Positions 1,895 to 28,333 of a stretch of DNA of 64,000 nucleotides are shown here, piece after piece; positions within the stretch are counted from its first letter, which is position 1, and each line of letters opens with the position of its first letter. The stretch is taken from contig NZ_BAABIS010000001.1 of NCBI RefSeq assembly GCF_039542905.1, forward strand, positions 2,232,001 through 2,296,000, given 5' to 3'. Both the position numbers and the translations under genes were made by a program. The notes under the pieces were generated by a model. It was not told the origin of the DNA. It ran no database searches and saw only the letters and a list, made by a program, of their open reading frames with translations. Origin of the DNA: Kitasatospora terrestris. GTDB taxonomy: Bacteria; Actinomycetota; Actinomycetes; Streptomycetales; Streptomycetaceae.

Positions 1895-2719
1895 TCAGGC
1901 GGCGGCGCCGGCCGCCCACCGCCCGAGGACCGGCTCCGCCACCAGCCGGGCGGGCCCGCAGAGCGTCTGGCCGTGCCGCGCGAACAGCTCGTCGCGCGAG
2001 TCGAATCGGCCGAGGTCCGCCAGCACGTACGCCGACAGGTCGCAGCCCGCCCCGTCCGCCGGGCACACCGCCGGACCGTCCCAGTCGATCGGGGTCCTGG
2101 CCAGCGCCTCGAACAGCGTCTCCGACCCGCGGTTGGCGAACCCGCCACCCGCGAAGCCGCCCTCCGCCGAGCCGTCACCCGCGAAGCCGCCCTCCGCCGA
2201 GCCGCCCTCCGCGCCGCGACCCGCGGCCGCGCCGAAGAGCTCGCCGACGGAGACCCAGCCGCCGTCGATCCGGAACTCCGGCCAGGCGAGCACCACCCGG
2301 TCCGGGACGATCCGCCGCAGCCGCGGGAAGCGCGGGTACCAGAACGTCCCGTCCACCACCAGTCCGCGGACCCGGGTGGGCACGCCGCCGGCCCGGGCCA
2401 CGGCCTCCAGGGCCGCCAGCCGCTGGCTGCACGAGCCGCATCCGCGCCGCAGCACCTCGGAGACCGGGCGGAGGTCCTCCACGGAGTACACCGGCCGCAC
2501 CCGGGCCACGATCAGCCGGTGCGCCCGCCGCAGCCGCTCCACCGGCGGGCCCTCGTCCCCCACCGCCCGGACCAGCGCCCGCACCCCGGGGTGCTCGCGG
2601 TCCAGGATCGGCGTCGGCGCGGTCCCGCCCCCCACCTCGACCGCTCCCGCCTCGGCCGCCCCCGCCGGGCCGAGGTCCGTCCTCGCGCGCCACCACGGCG
2701 TCAGCACCGCACACGTCAT
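1895..2719 (-). CDS. Transglutaminase-like domain protein
   Basis: 274 residues from an ATG at 2719, preceded by GAGGGGGG. The core resembles microbial transglutaminase/cysteine-protease-like proteins: the nucleophile region RRGCGSCSQR (Cys94/Cys97) is followed by a GGVPTRVRGLVVDG strand pair and AWPEFRIDGGWVSV. In active relatives the second block reads roughly His-x-Trp-x-Glu followed by Asp. Here the His position looks like Leu/Ala, so classical catalysis is doubtful. A glycine-rich 10-residue tandem repeat (EGGFAGDGSA-like) interrupts the C-terminal third, encoded by a 30-base direct repeat at 2147-2206. No signal peptide. Function not established. Confidence 0.75.
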   Translation of the reverse strand: MTCAVLTPWWRARTDLGPAGAAEAGAVEVGGGTAPTPILDREHPGVRALVRAVGDEGPPVERLRRAHRLIVARVRPVYSVEDLRPVSEVLRRGCGSCSQRLAALEAVARAGGVPTRVRGLVVDGTFWYPRFPRLRRIVPDRVVLAWPEFRIDGGWVSVGELFGAAAGRGAEGGSAEGGFAGDGSAEGGFAGGGFANRGSETLFEALARTPIDWDGPAVCPADGAGCDLSAYVLADLGRFDSRDELFARHGQTLCGPARLVAEPVLGRWAAGAAA

Positions 2720-2731
2720 GCCCCGCACCCC

Positions 2732-2760
2732 CCTCGACCCGGGACCGCCCCGGGTCGAGG
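2732..2760 (-). terminator. Perfect 12-bp hairpin between MMPL and transglutaminase-like genes
   Basis: CCTCGACCCGGG (2732-2743) pairs perfectly with CCCGGGTCGAGG (2749-2760) around a 5-base loop. It lies downstream of the MMPL gene and 12 bases upstream of the next start on the same strand. It can act as the MMPL terminator. It also lies at the 5' end of the transcript predicted from the promoter at 2764-2792. No T-tract follows. Confidence 0.5.
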
Positions 2761-2763
2761 CCC

Positions 2764-2792
2764 ATCGTCGCAGCATTTTTGAACACGTTCAA
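2764..2792 (-). promoter_or_regulatory. Candidate promoter with 14-bp operator palindrome
   Basis: On the minus strand TTGAAC (2792-2787) and GACGAT (2769-2764) are 17 bases apart, a good HrdB-like promoter for the transglutaminase-like gene. The -35 lies inside a perfect palindrome TTGAAC-AC-GTTCAA (2779-2792), so a dimeric repressor would compete with RNA polymerase. No regulator gene is adjacent. Confidence 0.5.
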
Positions 2793-2817
2793 CTATGCCG
2801 CGCCGGCTGCGGGCCGA

Positions 2818-5025
2818 TCAGTGCGCCCCGACCCCCGCCAGCTCGCGCTCCTCCTCCGCCACCCGCGGCGCCGGCAGGGTCGCCGGGGTCAGCGGCGGCA
2901 GCGTGACGTGCTCGCTCAGGCCGATGATCCGGTGCAGGCGGCGCAGCGGCGCCGGCGCCCACCAGTTGAGCTTGCCGAACAGCGACATGGTGGCCGGCAC
3001 CAGCAGGCAGCGGACCAGGGTGGCGTCGACCGCGACGGCCACCGCCAGCGCGATGCCCATCTGCTTGACCATGAGCATCTGCCCGGCCGCGAACCCGGCG
3101 AAGACGATCACCATCAGCAGTCCGGCCGAGGTGATGATCCGGCCGCTGCGCTGCAGGCCGAGCTGCACCGCCCGGTGGCAGTCGTACCCCTGGTCGTGGA
3201 GTTCCTTGATCCGCGAGAGCAGGAAGACCTCGTAGTCCATCGACAGCCCGAAGGCGAAGGCGAACACCAGTACCGGGATGTACGTCTCCAGCCCGCCGGT
3301 CGGCGTGAAGCCGAGCAGGCCGCTGAAGTAGCCGTGCTGGAAGACCAGGGTCAGCGCGCCGAGCGACGCGCCCAGCGAGAGCACGTTCATCAGCAGCGCC
3401 TTGATCGGCATCACCACCGAGCCGGTCATCATGAACAGCAGCACCAGCGTCCCGGCCGCGACCAGGCCGAGCGCCCACGGCCCGCGGGTGGTGATCTCGT
3501 GCTGGAAGTCGACCAGCGAGGCGGCGTCCCCGGTGACGTAGGTCTTCAGGCCGCCGCGGTCGGCGCGGAGCTCCTTGACCACGGTCTTCGCCTGGTCGCC
3601 CTGCGGGTCGCCCTGCACCAGGACCTCGACGGTGGAGACTCCGGTGTCGGCGCCGACCGGCGTCACGGCCCGCACCCCGCTGACGCCGGGCAGCTTGCTG
3701 ACCACGGTGTCCGCGTAGTTCTGCGCGGCGGCCGCGTCGCCCTCGACCACCACGGTGACCGGGGCCGGCACCTGGCCGGGGAAGCGCTGCTCGACGGTCT
3801 CGGCGACCTGGCGCGAGGAGAAGCTCTTCGGCAGCACGTCGGCGCCGGAGTTCTTGAAGTTCGAGCCGAGGAACGGCGCGCCGGCGGCCAGCAGCAGCGC
3901 GATGCAGGCCAGCATCACGGGGACGGCGCGCTTCTGCACCCGCCGGACGGTCCGCGAGAAGAAGCCCTCGTCGGGCACCGGCGAGGTCGGCGCCTTGATC
4001 CGCTTGCCGACGAAGCCCAGCAGCGCGGGGACCAGGGTGAGCGCCGCCGCGACGGCGATCACCACCACGCTCACGCCCGCCGCGGCGACCGCCCGGAACA
4101 CCGGGCTGGTGAAGACGAACAGACCGCTCAGTGCGACGGCCACGGTCAGGCCGGAGAAGGCGACCGTCCGGCCGGCGGTGGCGGCGGTCCGCTCGACGGC
4201 CTGGGCGATGGTGGCGCCGTGGCCGCGCTCCTCGCGGAAGCGGTTGACGATCAGCAGCGCGTAGTCGATCGACAAGCCGAGGCCCAGCACGGTGGCGATC
4301 GGCAGGACGCTGGTGTCCATGTCCATGATCCGGCTGAAGCCGAACATGGCGAGCAGGGCGCCGCCCACCGAGGCGATCGCGCCGATGCCGGGCAGTCCGG
4401 CCGCGGCGAGGCCGCCGAAGACCAGCACCATGACGATCAGCGTCAACGGCAGGGTGACGATCTCGCCGAAACGGGTGTCGGCCTCGGTCTGCTTCTTGAC
4501 CTCGTCCTGCAGCACCAGGTCGCCGCCGACCGTGACGTGCGCGCCACCGGCGTCGATGTGCTCCAGGCGGTCGGTGACCGCGGCGAGCTGGGCGGTGGTG
4601 GAGGCGTCCGCCATCTTCACCGAGACCAGCGAGGCGTTGCCGTCGCCCGCGGTCAGCTGCCCGCCGGCGGAGTAGGTGTCGACGACCGAGGAGACGCCCG
4701 GCAGGGCGGCGATGTCGGCGGTGGCGGCCTGCACGGCCCGCTGGACGGCCGGGTCGCTCGCGGGTGCCCCGTCCACGACGGCGGTGAGGCTGCCCAGGGC
4801 CGGGTCGGCGGTCTCCACGACCGAGGTGCCGCGGGCCGATTCGGAGCCGCCGGAGCCGGTGGCGGCCACCGAGCCCTCGAAGACCCGGCCCCCGATCAGG
4901 ACGCCGGCGGCCAGGACGAGCGCCCAAAAGGCGAGGACCCAACGACGGTGGCGGAAGCACGCTCGACCGAGGGCGGCGAGCCGGCCGCTGACCTGGTGCT
5001 CAGCGGTAGTGCGGGCGTTGCGCAT
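2818..5025 (-). CDS. MMPL/RND-family exporter
   Basis: 735 residues from ATG 5025 (AAAGG nine bases upstream; an alternative TTG start at 5046 follows GAGAGGAG too closely). The membrane layout is typical of actinobacterial MMPL proteins: TM1 near the N-terminus, a ~150-residue periplasmic loop, five TM helices with the GLGLSIDYALL motif, a second loop, and five more TM helices with FGLSMDYEVFLLSRI. Both motifs keep the buried Asp of the proton relay. It is likely a proton-driven exporter of a lipid or hydrophobic compound in the cytoplasmic membrane. Two palindromes flank it (5076-5094 upstream, 2779-2792 downstream) but no TetR gene is adjacent. Substrate unknown. Confidence 0.9.
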   Translation of the reverse strand: MRNARTTAEHQVSGRLAALGRACFRHRRWVLAFWALVLAAGVLIGGRVFEGSVAATGSGGSESARGTSVVETADPALGSLTAVVDGAPASDPAVQRAVQAATADIAALPGVSSVVDTYSAGGQLTAGDGNASLVSVKMADASTTAQLAAVTDRLEHIDAGGAHVTVGGDLVLQDEVKKQTEADTRFGEIVTLPLTLIVMVLVFGGLAAAGLPGIGAIASVGGALLAMFGFSRIMDMDTSVLPIATVLGLGLSIDYALLIVNRFREERGHGATIAQAVERTAATAGRTVAFSGLTVAVALSGLFVFTSPVFRAVAAAGVSVVVIAVAAALTLVPALLGFVGKRIKAPTSPVPDEGFFSRTVRRVQKRAVPVMLACIALLLAAGAPFLGSNFKNSGADVLPKSFSSRQVAETVEQRFPGQVPAPVTVVVEGDAAAAQNYADTVVSKLPGVSGVRAVTPVGADTGVSTVEVLVQGDPQGDQAKTVVKELRADRGGLKTYVTGDAASLVDFQHEITTRGPWALGLVAAGTLVLLFMMTGSVVMPIKALLMNVLSLGASLGALTLVFQHGYFSGLLGFTPTGGLETYIPVLVFAFAFGLSMDYEVFLLSRIKELHDQGYDCHRAVQLGLQRSGRIITSAGLLMVIVFAGFAAGQMLMVKQMGIALAVAVAVDATLVRCLLVPATMSLFGKLNWWAPAPLRRLHRIIGLSEHVTLPPLTPATLPAPRVAEEERELAGVGAH

Positions 5026-22912: not shown

Positions 22913-23563
22913 TCAGCCCTCGGACTCGGCCTTCTTCCGGTCCTGGGCCGCACCCTCCTCGATCACGGCCTCCGCCACCGCCGCCATCGTCATCCGACGG
23001 TCCATCGACGTCTTCTGGATCCACCGGAAGGCCGCCGGCTCGGTCAGCCCGAACTTCGTCTGCAGCACGCTCTTCGCCCGGTCCACCAGCTTGCGGGTCT
23101 CCAGCCGCTGCGAGAGATCCGCGATCTCCTGCTCCAGCGTCCGCATCTCGGTGTACCGCGACACCGCCATCTCGATCGCCGGCACCAGGTCGCTCTTCGA
23201 GAACGGCTTCACGATGTACGCCATCGCACCCGCGTCCCGGGCCCGGTCCACCAGCTCGCGCTGCGAGAACGCCGTCAGCATCAGCACCGGCGCCAGGTGC
23301 TGCTCGTGGATCCGCTCCGCCGCCGACAGACCGTCCAGCACCGGCATCTTCACATCGAGGATCGCCAGGTCCGGCCGCAGCTCCTCGACCAGCTTCACCG
23401 CCGTCTCCCCGTCCCCGGCCTCACCGACGACGGTGTACCCCTCCTCCTCCAGCATCTCCTTCAGGTCGAGACGGATCAGCGCCTCGTCCTCGGCGATCAC
23501 AATTCGGGTGATCTGGGGCGACTCGGTCTCAAGCGGCTCGGGCTGCTCGTCGGCGGTACTCAC
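22913..23563 (-). CDS. pdtaR: ANTAR-domain response regulator, PdtaR type
   Basis: 216 residues from GTG 23563 (GAGGAG upstream). The receiver domain (IVIAEDEALIRLDLKEML...) keeps the acidic pair, the phospho-acceptor Asp in LAILDVKMPVLDG and the Lys in IVKPF. A coiled linker (MRTLEQEIADLSQRLETRKL) leads to the C-terminal ANTAR RNA-binding domain (VDRAKSVLQTKFGLTEPAAFRWIQKTSMDRRMTM), whose Ala/Arg pattern binds twin hexaloop hairpins to cause antitermination. It is the homologue of mycobacterial PdtaR; its kinase PdtaS is not in the window. Confidence 0.95.
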   Translation of the reverse strand: MSTADEQPEPLETESPQITRIVIAEDEALIRLDLKEMLEEEGYTVVGEAGDGETAVKLVEELRPDLAILDVKMPVLDGLSAAERIHEQHLAPVLMLTAFSQRELVDRARDAGAMAYIVKPFSKSDLVPAIEMAVSRYTEMRTLEQEIADLSQRLETRKLVDRAKSVLQTKFGLTEPAAFRWIQKTSMDRRMTMAAVAEAVIEEGAAQDRKKAESEG

Positions 23564-23621
23564 GGGGCTCCTCGTTCCGGCGGGGGTACTGCATGCATGA
23601 GCCTACCTAGACACGGTATGT

Positions 23622-23663: not shown

Positions 23664-23736
23664 GCTCCGGTAGCCCAAGGGCAGAGGCGATGGTCTCAAA
23701 CACCATTCAGTGTGGGTTCGAATCCCACTCGGGGCA
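23664..23736 (+). tRNA. tRNA-Leu (anticodon CAA), short variable loop
   Basis: A 73-base cloverleaf can be drawn. Acceptor GCTCCGG (23664-23670) pairs with TCGGGGC (23729-23735) using two G-U pairs, with discriminator A at 23736. The D-stem is GCC/GGC. The anticodon stem ATGGT/ACCAT closes the loop CTCAAAC with anticodon CAA at 23697-23699. The T-arm is GTGGG-TTCGAAT-CCCAC. The variable loop is only five bases (TCAGT), whereas bacterial tRNA-Leu normally has a long extra arm (class II). CCA is not encoded. The codon read would be UUG. It could instead be a non-canonical or decaying tRNA. Confidence 0.85.
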
Positions 23737-23844
23737 CTTACCTTCAAATCCCAGGACGCCAGAGAGTTGGCGATCTTCACCACTTCAGGTGGCATCCACG
23801 CCCGGCCTCCGCGAGAATGCCGCGGCCCACGGACCATCACGACC

Positions 23845-24618
23845 ATGTACGACATGGCGACCCGCGAGCGGGCTCTGGCGCTCCACACCACCGGTCTGTC
23901 GCTGAGCCAGGTCAGCCGCTCCACCGGGATCTCCCGCTCGGCGATCCGCGCCTGGACCACCCGGATCGATCCGAGCCCCCGAATGACGGCGGAGTGCCCC
24001 GCCCCCTCCGGGCGCCTCGGCCCCACCGTCCCGTCCGGCGCCTACACCTACCTCCTCGGCCTCTACCTCGGCGACGGCTGCATCAGCCCCGAGCGCCGCG
24101 GGGTGTACGCCCTTCGCATCGCCTGCGGCAACGTGTGGCCGGGGCTGATCGACACGTGCGAGCGCACCGTCCGGTCGGTCATGCCCCACAACGCGACCCA
24201 CCGGGTCCGCGCGCCCGGCTGCACCCACGTGGTGAGCCGCAGCAAGCACTGGCCGTGCCTCCTCCCCCAGCACGGGCCGGGGAAGAAGCACGAGCGCCCG
24301 ATCGTCCTGGAGCCCTGGCAGCGGGAGCTGGTGGTCCGTCATCCGTGGGAGTTGCTGCGCGGGCTGATCCACTCGGACGGGTGCCGGATCACCAACCGGG
24401 CGACGCGGACGGTGGGTGGGGAGGTCCGGCGGCACGAGTACCCGCGGTACTTCTTCACCAACACCTCCCCGGACATCGTGCGGCTGTTCACCGACACCCT
24501 CGACGCCGTCGGCGTGGAGTGGCGGACGGCCCGGCGGGCGTCCGGGGCGGTGGACGTGTCGATCGCCCGCCGGGCCTCGGTGGCGCTACTGGACGCGCGC
24601 GTCGGCCCGAAGGGCTGA
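23845..24618 (+). CDS. HTH-LAGLIDADG protein (homing-endonuclease-like, unknown role)
   Basis: 257 residues from ATG 23845; an ATG at 23854 is equally possible and no clear ribosome binding site is seen. The N-terminal helix-turn-helix ERALALHTTGLSLSQVSRSTG...AIRAW (about 8-37) is of the simple Hin/transposase type. Two LAGLIDADG helices follow: LLGLYLGDGCIS (Asp77) and LLRGLIHSDGCRI (Asp178). Both keep the acidic residue used for metal binding in nucleases. The gene starts ~110 bases after the tRNA, on the same strand, and its end overlaps the convergent MMPL gene by 33 bases. It could be a free-standing homing-type nuclease or a WhiA-like domesticated DNA-binding protein. Confidence 0.8.
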   Translation: MYDMATRERALALHTTGLSLSQVSRSTGISRSAIRAWTTRIDPSPRMTAECPAPSGRLGPTVPSGAYTYLLGLYLGDGCISPERRGVYALRIACGNVWPGLIDTCERTVRSVMPHNATHRVRAPGCTHVVSRSKHWPCLLPQHGPGKKHERPIVLEPWQRELVVRHPWELLRGLIHSDGCRITNRATRTVGGEVRRHEYPRYFFTNTSPDIVRLFTDTLDAVGVEWRTARRASGAVDVSIARRASVALLDARVGPKG

Positions 24619-26787
24619 GCGGTCCGGCGCGGGCTCGGGCGCAGGGCTGCGCCGGGTCGGGCGCAGGGGCCACCAGAGGGTGCGACCGAGGAGGGCGGCG
24701 AGGGCGGGGACGAGGACGAGGGAGAGGACGAGCGCGGAGAGCAGGATGCCGAGGGTGAGGGCGAAGGCGACCTGTTCGGTGCCGGGGGTGGTGGCGAGGG
24801 TGGCGAAGGAGCCGGCGAGGACGAGGCCGGCGGTGGCGACGGCGGGGGCGCTGTGGCGGACGGCGCGGGCGACGGCCTCGCGGGGCGGTCCGGGGTGTCG
24901 CATCTCTTCGCGGATCCGGTCGGTGACGAGGATGTTGTAGTCGGTGCCGAGGGCGACGACGAACAGGAAGAGGACCAGCGGCAGGGTGAAGCTGACGCCG
25001 GGTCCGTCCAGGAGGTGCTGGAAGAGGAGGGTGGCGGCGCCGAGGGTGGCGGCGAAGCCGAGGCCGACGGAGAGCATCAGGACCACCGGGGCGAGCAGGC
25101 TGCGCAGCAGGAGGAGCAGGATCAGTCCGATCAGGGCGGCGGCGACCGGGAAGACGATCCGGAGGTCGTGGTCGACGGCGGTGGAGATGTCGGCGAAGGT
25201 GGCCGCGGTGCCGCCGACGTGGGCGGTGGTGCCGGGGGGTGTGTGGGCGGCGACGGCGGCGCGGACGGGGCCGGCGGCGAGGTCGCGGGCGTCCTGGCTC
25301 TGCGGGTCGGCGGTGAGGTAGAGGTCGATGCGGGCGGCGTGGCGGGTGTCGTTGAGGACGGCGGGGGCGATGCGGCCGATGCCGTCGACGGCGCCGAGGG
25401 CCCGGGTGAGGCCGTCGAGCCGGGCGGTGGTGAGCGGGGTGCCGTCGTCGGCGGTGAGGTAGACGGTGGTGGGATCGGAGACGCCGGCGGGGAGGGCTCG
25501 GGAGATCTCGGTGGCGGTGGCGGCGGCGGGGGTGTCGGTCTGGTCTCCGAGGCCGTAGTCCATGCGGATGCCGAGGGTTCCGGCGGAGAGTGCGGCGAGG
25601 ACGGCGACGGCGGCGAGCAGCAGGGGCAGCGGCCGTCGGGCGAGGAGGGTGCCGTAGCGGGTGGCGGTCCGTTCGCGGGGCTGTCGGCGGAGGCTGCGGG
25701 AGGGCCAGTAGAGCTTGCGGCCGCAGGCGGCGAGCAGGGCGGGCATGAGGGTGAGGCTGCCGAGGAGCATGACGAGGACGGCGACGGCGATGGCGGGTCC
25801 GAGGGAGCGGAACTGGCCGAAGGTGGCGGTGCCGAGGGTGGCGAAGGCGGCGACGATGGTGAGCGCGGCGGAGGTGATGGCGGTGCCGACCCGGGCGGAC
25901 ACCTGGGCGGCGGCTTCGCGGGCGGGCTGGTCGGGCCGGTTGCGGAGGTGCTCGCGGAAGCGGAAGAGCAGGAACAGCAGGTAGTCGATGCCGATGCCGA
26001 GGAGGACGACGGAGATCAGTCCGGGGGTGCCCGAGTCGAGGGTGAGGCCGGTGAGGGCGGCGGCGCCGGCGACGGCGCCGGTGGCGGCCCCGCTGATCAT
26101 GGTGACGGCGAGGAGCGGGACGAGGGCGGCCAGGACGCTGCGGAACACCAGCACGTTGAGCAGGACGATGAGGCCGACGACGAGGGCTCCGCCGACGGTG
26201 GCGGCGGTGCGGTTGGCGTCCTCGGTGTCCGCGACGGCGGCGAGTCCGCCGGTGAATCCGGTGCGCATGCCGGCGTCGGTGTACTGGGTGCGGGCGGTGT
26301 CGCGGAAGGTCCGGTACACGTCCTGGACGCCCGGTTCGGCGGCGTTGCCGGTGAACTCGACGGCGAACAGTTCGAAGCTGCGGTCGGGGGCGAGCATCGC
26401 GGGGGCGACGCGGGGGGTCTGGGAGTGGTCGGGGACGAGGAAGGCGGGCTCGTCCTCCTTGCGGGGCATGGTCACCCGGTGCCGGCCGAGTTCCGCTGCC
26501 GCGCGCTCGATCCGCTGCTGGTCGGCGGCGGTGAGGGGGGTGCCGTCGGCGCGGGCCACGAGCATCGTGGCGGTGGTGGCGTCGGGCTTCACGCCGAACT
26601 GTTCCTCGGCGATGCGCAGGGCGGCGGCGGAGTCGTAGCCGCTGGGCAGGAAGTCGGCGGACTGGGCCTGGGTGACGCGGCCGAGCAGCATCGGGCCGAG
26701 GATGCCGAGTCCGATGCCGACGACGGCCCAGAGGGCGATGACCTTCCACGCGTGTCTGGTGGCGAATCCGGTCAGTGCGCGGATCAC
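24586..26787 (-). CDS. MMPL/RND-family exporter (second copy)
   Basis: 733 residues from GTG 26787, preceded by a perfect AGGAGGA. Twelve membrane helices in two RND halves; the proton-relay motifs are LLGIGIDYLLFLLFRFRE and VALGTDYNILVTDRIREE. Each half has a large external loop (for example PDATTATMLVARADG and PAGVSDPTTVYLTADDG). This belongs to the SCO-type MMPL clade whose members are often controlled by a neighbouring regulator. It is divergent from the NarL-type kinase/regulator pair starting at 27053 and probably controlled by it. Its 3' end overlaps the HTH-LAGLIDADG gene. Substrate unknown. Confidence 0.9.
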   Translation of the reverse strand: MIRALTGFATRHAWKVIALWAVVGIGLGILGPMLLGRVTQAQSADFLPSGYDSAAALRIAEEQFGVKPDATTATMLVARADGTPLTAADQQRIERAAAELGRHRVTMPRKEDEPAFLVPDHSQTPRVAPAMLAPDRSFELFAVEFTGNAAEPGVQDVYRTFRDTARTQYTDAGMRTGFTGGLAAVADTEDANRTAATVGGALVVGLIVLLNVLVFRSVLAALVPLLAVTMISGAATGAVAGAAALTGLTLDSGTPGLISVVLLGIGIDYLLFLLFRFREHLRNRPDQPAREAAAQVSARVGTAITSAALTIVAAFATLGTATFGQFRSLGPAIAVAVLVMLLGSLTLMPALLAACGRKLYWPSRSLRRQPRERTATRYGTLLARRPLPLLLAAVAVLAALSAGTLGIRMDYGLGDQTDTPAAATATEISRALPAGVSDPTTVYLTADDGTPLTTARLDGLTRALGAVDGIGRIAPAVLNDTRHAARIDLYLTADPQSQDARDLAAGPVRAAVAAHTPPGTTAHVGGTAATFADISTAVDHDLRIVFPVAAALIGLILLLLLRSLLAPVVLMLSVGLGFAATLGAATLLFQHLLDGPGVSFTLPLVLFLFVVALGTDYNILVTDRIREEMRHPGPPREAVARAVRHSAPAVATAGLVLAGSFATLATTPGTEQVAFALTLGILLSALVLSLVLVPALAALLGRTLWWPLRPTRRSPAPEPAPDRSALRADARVQ

Positions 26788-27052
26788 GTCGTCCTCCTGC
26801 TGATGGCTGGTGGCGGGGTCGGCCGGCGGTTCGCGGCCGGTCTCCAGACCATCACCCGGGGTGGGGCCGGGGCGTCCTGGCCGCGGACGATCCGTGCGGG
26901 GGGCCGGGCTCCCCGGTGCGGTCCGGGGACCGGGAGCGTGGTCCTGGTCCCACCTCCCGGGGCCGGCCGGGGGGAGCATGCCCGCGGGTGCGGGCGGGTG
27001 CCAGAATCGGACATCGTGGCTGATCGGCCGCGGGTACGAGGAGGAGCGGAAC

Positions 27053-28333
27053 ATGGGCGGGCGTCAGCGCCCCGGTGCCGGGGCGGCGGCCCCCGGCGGC
27101 ACGGCGGGTCCGGCGGCGGCTTCCGGCACGGCGGCCGACGGCTCGCCGTGGACGCAGGCCGACGCGTCGGTGGCGGTCGGCGCCGGGCTGCTCGATCTGC
27201 TCACTTACCTGCTCTTCAGCGGTGTCGAACGGCACGAGGCGCCGGGTCTGACCGGCTTCGTGGCGGTGGTGCTGTCGGCGCTGCCGCTGCTGGTCCGCCG
27301 CCGGTACCCGGTGGCGGTGCTGGGGGCCGTGGTGGCGCTGGAGGCGGTGGCCGACCTGGCCGCCCCGCCGACCAGCCATTTCGGCGCGGTCCTGGCGGTG
27401 GCGCTGTTCACGGTGGCGTGGAGCTGCGCCGTCCCGGTGACGGTGGCGGCGGGGGTGGCGACGACGGTGGTGACGGGGCTGGCGCAGAGCCATCTGCGGC
27501 TGCCGGAGTGGCAGGCGGCGGTGGCGACGCCGTTGACGGTGCTGATGGTGGCGGGCGCGGGGTTCGCGGCGTCGCGCTGGCAGCGCCAGGTGGCGGCCAA
27601 CCGCAGGCTGCTGGCGGACCGTGCGGTGGCGGACGAACGGCGGCGGATCGCCCGGGAGTTGCACGACATCGTGGCGCACCACATCACGAGCATGCAGTTG
27701 ATGGCGGGCGGTGCCCGGGCCAACGTCGGGAATCCGGAGCTGGTCCGGGACGCCCTGGTGACCCTGGAGTCGTCGGGGCGGATGGCGCTGCGCGAGATGC
27801 GGCAGCTGCTGGACGTCCTGCGGGCGGGTGACGAGCCGGATTCCGCGCCGCCGACGCCGCAGCCGGGGGTGGACGACCTGGACCGGCTGGTGGCCGAGGC
27901 GTGCGCGGCCGGTCTGCCGACGGAGCTGGTGGTCGAGGGCCGGGCGCGGCCGCTGCCGCCCACGGTCGGGCTGACGGTGTTCCGGATCGTCCAGGAGTCG
28001 CTGACCAATGCGCGCCGGTACGCGGGGCCGGCCCGGGGGCTGGTCCGGCTGGTCCACGAGCCGGACCGGGTCACGGTCGAGGTGCGGGACGACGGCGGGC
28101 GGGGTCGTGACGGCTCTCCGGGCCGCGAGAGGCTCGCGGCCGGGTCCGGGGGCGGCCACGGCGGCGGGTCCGGGTACGGGCTGGTCGGGATGCGGGAGCG
28201 GGTGGCGCTGCACGGCGGCACGCTGCGGACCGGTCCGCGGCCGGGCGGCGGTTGGGCGGTGCTCGCCGAGCTGCCGCTGTCGGCGGACGAGGTGGCGGAG
28301 GCGGCCGTGGAGCGCGGGGAGCGGGTGCGATGA
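27053..28333 (+). CDS. NarL-type sensor histidine kinase
   Basis: 426 residues from ATG 27053 (GAGGAG upstream). An Ala/Gly-rich N-terminus is followed by about five membrane helices (LLDLLTYLLFSG... to VLMVAGAGFAAS). Then comes the HisKA_3 dimerisation domain with the phospho-acceptor His in ERRRIARELHDIVAHH, and a HATPase_c domain (VFRIVQESLTNARRY N-box; VEVRDDGGRG and GYGLVGMRERV G-boxes). A Gly/Arg-rich insert separates the last two. The short extracellular loops suggest an intramembrane-sensing kinase. It overlaps the response regulator gene by four bases (ATGA). Confidence 0.93.
   Translation: MGGRQRPGAGAAAPGGTAGPAAASGTAADGSPWTQADASVAVGAGLLDLLTYLLFSGVERHEAPGLTGFVAVVLSALPLLVRRRYPVAVLGAVVALEAVADLAAPPTSHFGAVLAVALFTVAWSCAVPVTVAAGVATTVVTGLAQSHLRLPEWQAAVATPLTVLMVAGAGFAASRWQRQVAANRRLLADRAVADERRRIARELHDIVAHHITSMQLMAGGARANVGNPELVRDALVTLESSGRMALREMRQLLDVLRAGDEPDSAPPTPQPGVDDLDRLVAEACAAGLPTELVVEGRARPLPPTVGLTVFRIVQESLTNARRYAGPARGLVRLVHEPDRVTVEVRDDGGRGRDGSPGRERLAAGSGGGHGGGSGYGLVGMRERVALHGGTLRTGPRPGGGWAVLAELPLSADEVAEAAVERGERVR

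Follow-up and report, generated by a model that had tools for sequence, protein, structure and literature searches.

Results

The window analyzed here is a 64,000-nucleotide stretch (G000:C1:2232001-2296000) of the 8.57-Mb genome of Kitasatospora terrestris. It contains a tRNA-Leu(CAA) gene followed by an ORF for a protein with a helix-turn-helix (HTH) and two LAGLIDADG helices (Table 1). The end of the tRNA and the start of the ORF are 107 nt apart, close to the roughly 110 bases originally predicted; a longer form of the ORF, starting from a GTG at 23710, would overlap the tRNA. Both genes are separate and uninterrupted, so the ORF lies within neither a group I intron nor an intein, in line with the original prediction, and it sits between genes that are conserved in relatives. 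We take these neighbors to be pdtaR, encoding a response regulator, and pyk, names assigned from general features of the two families. In the window, the position that pyk holds in many relatives is occupied by a long ORF (24586-27054, minus strand), which by resemblance presumably encodes an MMPL-type transporter.

Table 1 Features of the tRNA-Leu(CAA) locus, in window coordinates
Feature	Position	Strand	Evidence or remark
Left flank: pdtaR-type response regulator (presumed), long-standing neighbor of the tRNA	22913..23563	-	ORF; homologues by tblastn
GAGCCTACCTAG, last stretch common to class I and class II loci	23599..23610	+	Locus alignments; promoter regions diverge after it
tRNA-Leu(CAA) of class I with a 5-nt variable loop; presumed to be the target, the replacement tRNA or both	23664..23737	+	ARAGORN; Rfam RF00005, 52 bits
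Leader, tRNA to ORF	23738..23844	+	Leader remnants (by eye) in some gene-free loci
HTH-LAGLIDADG protein, 257 aa, putative free-standing homing endonuclease	23845..24618	+	ORF, ATG at 23845
N-terminal HTH region, residues 1-40	23845..23964	+	Sub-threshold Pfam HTH matches; three predicted helices
First LAGLIDADG helix and D77 (codon 24073-24075)	24034..24078	+	Predicted helix 64-75
Second LAGLIDADG helix and D178 (codon 24376-24378)	24343..24381	+	Predicted helix 167-178

The tRNA was assigned to class I because its variable loop has five bases. No further CAA tRNA was found among the 71 of 76 tRNA matches read in the window genome; the remaining five scored the same as one of these. In the same genome, four leucine tRNA genes (two GAG, one CAG and one UAA) are of class II. 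The UAG leucine tRNA of the genome (L084, G000:C1:3185875-3185949; 56.6 bits with model R1) is likewise class I and resembles the CAA one. Elsewhere in the genome (L086, G000:C1:2046917-2047308), four low-scoring tRNA-like genes with very similar D arms (Ser, Glu, Trp and Ala by ARAGORN) are possibly a mobile or decaying tRNA cluster. When 107 leaders were folded against 40 shuffles each, the mean z was -2.6, with values below -2 in 65 of them; the leader of the window itself had a z of -0.2 and no strong hairpin. The strong leader hairpins of relatives are candidates for a terminator or for start-site control.

The domain content originally predicted, a free-standing protein with an N-terminal HTH and two LAGLIDADG helices that keep Asp at residues 77 and 178, was borne out by the ORF, AlphaFold2 and Foldseek. 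Pfam LAGLIDADG_3 matched at 20.6 bits against a cut-off of 22.5, which is a curated value rather than a property of the fold, and weak, sub-threshold HTH matches all fell within residues 1-45. With 27 relatives as input, AlphaFold2 predicted a homing endonuclease fold at a mean pLDDT of 87.7, comprising HTH helices at residues 4-15, 20-27 and 31-39, a low-confidence linker (41-48) and two alpha-beta-beta-alpha-beta-beta-alpha repeats. The top Foldseek match in the PDB was I-Tsp061I (E = 1.9e-8, TM 0.53/0.64), followed by I-AniI (E = 1.3e-7) and I-DmoI (E = 2.6e-7). These three enzymes resemble the window protein in its predicted fold and its two Asp residues but are intron-encoded, whereas the window protein has no intron, an added N-terminal HTH and a tRNA-Leu gene as its neighbor. 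WhiA (DUF199), a conserved chromosomal regulator, also joins LAGLIDADG and HTH in a single actinobacterial protein. In fold, however, it is a remote relative (rank 50 among the 50 matches listed), and its LAGLIDADG part precedes the HTH, so the window protein, with its HTH at the N-terminus, has the opposite domain order, as had been predicted.

Across 112 alignment rows (one of them, L114, duplicating L002), D77 was Asp in every row and D178 in 111, the remaining row being a gap in a damaged copy. The median dN/dS was 0.34 and every pair was below 1 (1293 of 5778 pairs, those with 0.05 < dS < 0.8; L108, L111, L113 and L114 left out). Conservation, selection and predicted fold fit an active, selected endonuclease, and the Asp pair together with the fold suggests a two-repeat monomeric LAGLIDADG homing endonuclease. 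The alignment also contains two versions of the N-terminus, MYDxxTR... in L001-L008 and CPHCYGD or similar in L009-L030, joined to nearly identical C-terminal halves, which suggests domain exchange.

The protein was matched in 38 of 61 genomes, comprising its own and those of relatives; among the matches listed, the closest named record was Kitasatospora mediocidica (L114, equivalent to genome G034). We assembled 110 loci, 30 from the genome search and 80 from named records (the best 80 of 525 stretches), one of them repeated. All 110 had a tRNA-Leu(CAA) upstream on the same strand, 93 of class I and 17 of class II. In a wider set of 188 bacterial loci (185 distinct by gene core), made up of the best matches among those listed plus some picked as broken, doubled or distant and leaving out L254 (the window again) and L275, the nearest tRNA was a tRNA-Leu in 187: CAA in 180, UAG in 4, CAG in 2 and UAA in 1. 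In 175 loci the tRNA lay 5' of the gene in the same orientation, in 8 it was 5' but oppositely oriented, and in 5 it lay 3' of the gene in the same orientation, giving a shared strand in 180 of 188, with a median gap of 108 nt. In eight other families of the same class, tRNA-Leu(CAA) lay beside the gene in 18 of 21 loci; the other three, all from one family (f6), were divergent from a class II tRNA-Leu(UAG), and no pdtaR was detected there. Other classes of the phylum had a tRNA-Leu beside 13 of 14 loci (CAA 9, CAG 2, UAG 1, UAA 1), and the fourteenth, where the nearest tRNA was tRNA-Trp, was the sole bacterial exception. Because the gene follows four isoacceptor genes, in varied settings and on either side, it appears tied to tRNA-Leu itself rather than to one neighborhood.

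These counts bear out the suggestion that gene and tRNA form a conserved pair. With the pair conserved and the aspartates kept, the case that the original prediction named as speaking against a link, relatives with the gene at unrelated loci, no tRNA and decayed Asp residues, was not observed. As far as the compared sequences go, the proposed nuclease-tRNA link is right and much broader than first stated. The description of the tRNA as non-canonical did not hold. Six genomes from other genera (G038, G052, G055, G056, G058 and G059), none with a protein match, have the class I form of tRNA-Leu(CAA) as confirmed by ARAGORN, so it is not peculiar to the window locus; the short variable loop is common among actinomycetes.

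Subsequently, we searched for the protein outside bacterial chromosomes. A viral collection yielded nine convincing relatives, three of which are near-copies. In three phage contigs (L298, L299 and L300), the gene stood directly behind a tRNA-Leu(UAA); L298 and L299 share the same upstream flank and a protein about 95% alike, but the tRNA-Leu(UAA) genes that lie between flank and protein gene are quite different in the two contigs. In L301 (region 2934-3761), the ORF (3001-3738) splits a class II tRNA-Leu, whose 5' part begins at 2934 and 3' part at 3737 and whose anticodon arm is missing. The same ORF holds a complete class I tRNA-Leu(CAA) (3127-3200) nested between the HTH and LAGLIDADG parts. 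A second contig (L343, region 2712-3549) has a class I tRNA-Leu(UAA) (72.3 bits, model R1) nested at the same place in the ORF, behind a 5' fragment of a class II tRNA-Leu and with no 3' part. None of 112 bacterial ORFs contained a nested tRNA. In three similar contigs (L344-L346), the match begins 8 nt behind a tRNA-Met, and in L347 a leucine-like tRNA was seen upstream by eye and not reported by ARAGORN. No tRNA was found at six weak viral matches (L349-L354), which were left out of the analysis. Collections of phage and plasmid records gave no tblastn match at E = 1e-4, and so no vehicle for the bacterial form.

We then compared occupied and empty sites, a comparison that the original prediction had proposed. 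By tblastn, 127 of 131 loci had a pdtaR homologue, and 115 of 131 had pyk within the fetched flanks. In gene-free tRNA-Leu(CAA) loci, other families included, pdtaR adjoined the tRNA in 12 of 13 tested. Two genomes (G056 and G026) have the order pdtaR-tRNA-pyk, and elsewhere the gene lies in between, so both forms occur between the same flanks. In G056, which belongs to another family, the pyk-matching sequence begins about 40 nt past the tRNA; in carriers, the pyk match begins shortly past the stop of the gene. Two further class II CAA tRNAs, L338 (G118) and L339 (G112), are additional copies with no pdtaR nearby.

A survey of 200 Streptomycetaceae genomes gave protein matches in 155 at E ≤ 1e-3, of which 146 were counted as strong after leaving out nine with E above 1e-7. 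At least 21 of these 146 were broken, as read from the matches listed (G069, G158 and G164 by E-value alone), and one more was cut by a contig end. Among the 45 genomes without a match, 35 had a class I CAA tRNA, 8 a class II and 2 neither, the ten lacking both protein and class I tRNA being found by comparing the protein and tRNA lists. Some gene-free genomes retain leader remnants seen by eye or fragments of the gene (G025 and G026; fragments in G081, G114 and G211), as expected after gene loss. Ten same-genus genomes (G019, G027, G029, G031, G035, G073, G134, G137, G185 and G188) had no leader remnant by eye and share a single tRNA allele, identical in nine and one base off in G185. The five that could be placed on the pdtaR tree fell within one clade of seven, alongside two class II loci. 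Because these clean genomes are all of one genus and the placed ones of one clade, their shared allele may reflect ancestry. Five genomes carry two full-length copies each, in tandem. Homing endonuclease genes usually pass through such a cycle, with intact, broken, absent and doubled copies at a given site.

Next, we examined the two tRNA classes in 37 same-genus genomes. Class I and class II CAA tRNAs were mutually exclusive, with 25 genomes of class I (at least 90.8 bits with model R1) and 12 of class II without class I (best R1 score at most 64.5 bits). The gene was present in all 12 class II genomes (2 broken) and in 18 of the 25 class I genomes (some broken); the family survey, with its eight class II genomes without a match, also includes gene-free genomes with a class II tRNA. 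On the pdtaR tree (126 rows, 19 of class II), the class label changed 18 times against a shuffled mean of 18.0, a value reached or undercut in 321 of 500 shuffles. On the protein tree (110 rows), it changed 10 times against 16.1, with none of 500 shuffles as low, a clustering that near-copies make easier. Both trees leave out L114 (equal to L002), and the protein tree also L108.

Sister genomes indicate how the classes change. L019 is a class II locus with the gene, and G025 is a class I genome without it that has other sequence in its place. They share 98.47% identity across 1243 bp to the left and 1435 bp to the right, whereas the tRNA-gene block between cannot be aligned. Identity on the left stops 46 nt before the tRNA and on the right resumes just past the gene. 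The same 46-nt break was seen in L021/L118, L009/G019, L024/G029 and L013/L107, and the break lay 41 nt 5' of the tRNA in L181/L189 and 46-53 nt in L001/L011. Beyond GAGCCTACCTAG, the promoter regions also differ between class I and class II loci. The alignments of two pairs that differ in class, L116/L146 and L028/L030, run through the locus without a sharp break. This replacement of whole blocks suggests that the tRNA is co-converted with the gene.

Block replacement at a tRNA gene could also come from an integrase: a prophage or integrative element would use tRNA-Leu as its attachment site and bring its own tRNA-Leu, with the LAGLIDADG gene as leftover cargo. There is precedent in Mycobacterium smegmatis, whose tRNA-Leu-CAA is the attB of Cluster J and X phages and where phage Gaia has its own tRNA-Leu-CAA (PMC10865867), and phage relatives of the protein exist. 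We regard this as quite unlikely here, since replacement in the sharp-break pairs starts 41-53 nt upstream of the tRNA and includes its promoter, instead of starting inside the tRNA. In the window locus, moreover, pdtaR and the long ORF leave no room for an integrase ORF.

Another candidate, codon reassignment by an odd tRNA, was dropped as unlikely because the CAA tRNA detected can be of either class in genomes that are nearly identical and because the class I form is common in actinomycetes; a single tRNA-Leu(CAA) per genome is also tabulated for six Streptomyces (PMC4932002).

The CAA tRNA proved highly variable, with 29 alleles in the 37 same-genus genomes. The CAG leucine tRNA of the window genome, the only other tRNA compared in this way, was unchanged in 37 of 37. 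Carriers have diverged CAA alleles, and the alleles of clean empty sites all come from one genus. Among 24 distinct class I alleles, cloverleaf pairing was kept in 99% of cells and both sides changed in 14 of 20 pairs; judged from these alignments, tRNA-Leu(CAA) is under structural constraint.

Such turnover might instead be driven by defense, with anticodon nucleases of host or phage that cut tRNA-Leu selecting altered alleles, and the endonuclease merely helping to move tRNA genes. Endonucleases do accompany mobile tRNA genes elsewhere: SegB amplifies a tRNA region in phage T6 (PMC13096335), mycobacterial tRNA clusters with HNH endonucleases have moved horizontally (PMC6582537), and tRNA-Leu genes are nested and swapped in our phage contigs. 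We nevertheless consider defense a very improbable driver, given that the CAG tRNA, the one other leucine tRNA compared, did not change and that evading an anticodon nuclease does not obviously require a change of structural class.

We further compared the histories of tRNA, protein and pdtaR by Mantel tests on 89 class I loci (L107, L108, L114 and loci with a gap over 200 left out). Protein and pdtaR distances were strongly correlated (r = 0.77), and those of tRNA correlated weakly with protein (0.10) and pdtaR (0.13); given pdtaR, the partial tRNA-protein correlation was 0.004. Restricted to 15 loci from the first search set (13 of the same genus), the partial correlation was 0.37 (p = 0.007). 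These values suggest that the protein is largely inherited vertically and that tRNA alleles also change independently of it. Such partial exchange of the tRNA without the protein is compatible with a cut in the tRNA but does not prove one. A recombination hotspot centered on the tRNA alone was rejected, as windows over 68 loci gave no clean peak and the protein interior was about equally incongruent. Specificity of the HTH that tracks tRNA sequence was also rejected as a general signal: the N-terminal partial correlation given pdtaR was -0.02 in the 89 class I loci, 0.08 (p = 0.05) in 74 named-record loci and 0.33 (p = 0.006) in the 15 first-set loci (13 of the same genus, 2 of other genera).

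Vertical inheritance of the protein, together with purifying selection, the shared strand and the regular gap, would also be consistent with a conserved functional pair, in which a domesticated, non-mobile LAGLIDADG factor expresses, matures or regulates the neighboring tRNA-Leu in the manner of WhiA or an RNA maturase. We think this unlikely. Of the 200 family genomes surveyed, 45 lack a match, 43 of these having a CAA tRNA of either class, and at least 21 more carry a broken copy. The gene accepts both tRNA classes and four isoacceptors and lies on either side or strand. Its catalytic aspartates are kept, unlike WhiA, which is not known to have nuclease activity.

Discussion

The loci described here are probably best explained by a free-standing, two-repeat LAGLIDADG homing endonuclease that targets the tRNA-Leu gene through intronless homing, with co-conversion of a replacement tRNA. 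In intronless homing, an endonuclease whose gene stands free cleaves a related locus at a nearby target, and repair brings in the gene with the donor version of that target (PMC2988022). For the present family, the endonuclease gene would live beside tRNA-Leu, and its LAGLIDADG core, aided by the HTH, would recognize DNA and cut the matching tRNA-Leu locus of a strain with a sensitive allele. Donor-templated repair would then carry the gene, the donor tRNA and its promoter into the break. The incoming tRNA must work and yet escape cutting, since tRNA-Leu(CAA) is usually a single gene. Diverged alleles would thus be selected, including replacements between class I and class II; class switching, promoter exchange and the diversity of alleles would all follow from the need for a functional, uncut substitute.

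That the tRNA-Leu gene is the target, as the original prediction proposed, is suggested by the way the gene follows tRNA-Leu across loci and lies inside one in a phage contig. The range of four isoacceptors, the occupied, broken and empty sites and the block replacements also favor it. Speaking against it, tRNA alleles also change without the protein, low congruence extends into the protein interior, two class-differing pairs lack a sharp break, some gene-free genomes have a class II tRNA, and one bacterial locus and three phage contigs lie nearest to tRNA-Trp and tRNA-Met, respectively. DNA cleavage, its position within the tRNA, the resistance of diverged tRNAs and the route of DNA transfer are what we infer from comparing loci.

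Three known systems offer partial parallels. Phage T4 SegB is free-standing, lies among tRNA genes and is preferentially inherited with that region (PMC2988022), but it is a GIY-YIG rather than a LAGLIDADG enzyme, belongs to a phage rather than a bacterial chromosome, and its listed site lies between tRNA genes rather than in a chromosomal tRNA-Leu (PMC2988022). In tRNA-dependent lysogeny of mycobacteriophages, a mobile element disrupts an essential tRNA, tRNA-Leu-CAA included, and supplies a replacement (PMC10865867); it works by a tyrosine integrase and attP, neither of which fits in the window locus. Synthetic home-and-rescue drives follow a similar logic: the nuclease inserts a copy of itself into an essential gene and brings along a recoded version of that gene (PMC7968924). 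These are engineered Cas9 systems in insects, whereas the system proposed here would be natural.

Measured against these, the family would be one of tRNA-Leu-associated, HTH-bearing, free-standing LAGLIDADG homing endonucleases. Among the open-literature matches listed, titles and opening abstract lines revealed no paper on a LAGLIDADG-tRNA-Leu pairing, a search mostly outside subscription papers. A bolder reading, plausible though we stop short of calling it probable, is that of a natural home-and-rescue element. On this reading, a family of endonucleases specialized on tRNA-Leu would cut a host gene that is present once and is probably essential, and would provide in exchange a tRNA-Leu that it cannot cleave; this tRNA would at times belong to the other class and, in phages, sit within the ORF of the endonuclease itself. 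Over time, such a family would have rewritten the CAA tRNA-Leu across Actinomycetota, and the actinomycete tRNA-Leu with a short variable loop may have begun as one of these rescue tRNAs.

If true, this would account for the hypervariability of one core tRNA gene and for its switch of class between nearly identical strains, alongside an unchanged CAG gene, the one other leucine tRNA compared. It would also mean that a selfish nuclease of bacterial chromosomes targets a core gene of translation and carries its own repair. The system is testable at the level of cut site, resistance and transfer, and the locus would be a natural experiment on how far a tRNA-Leu can change and still work.
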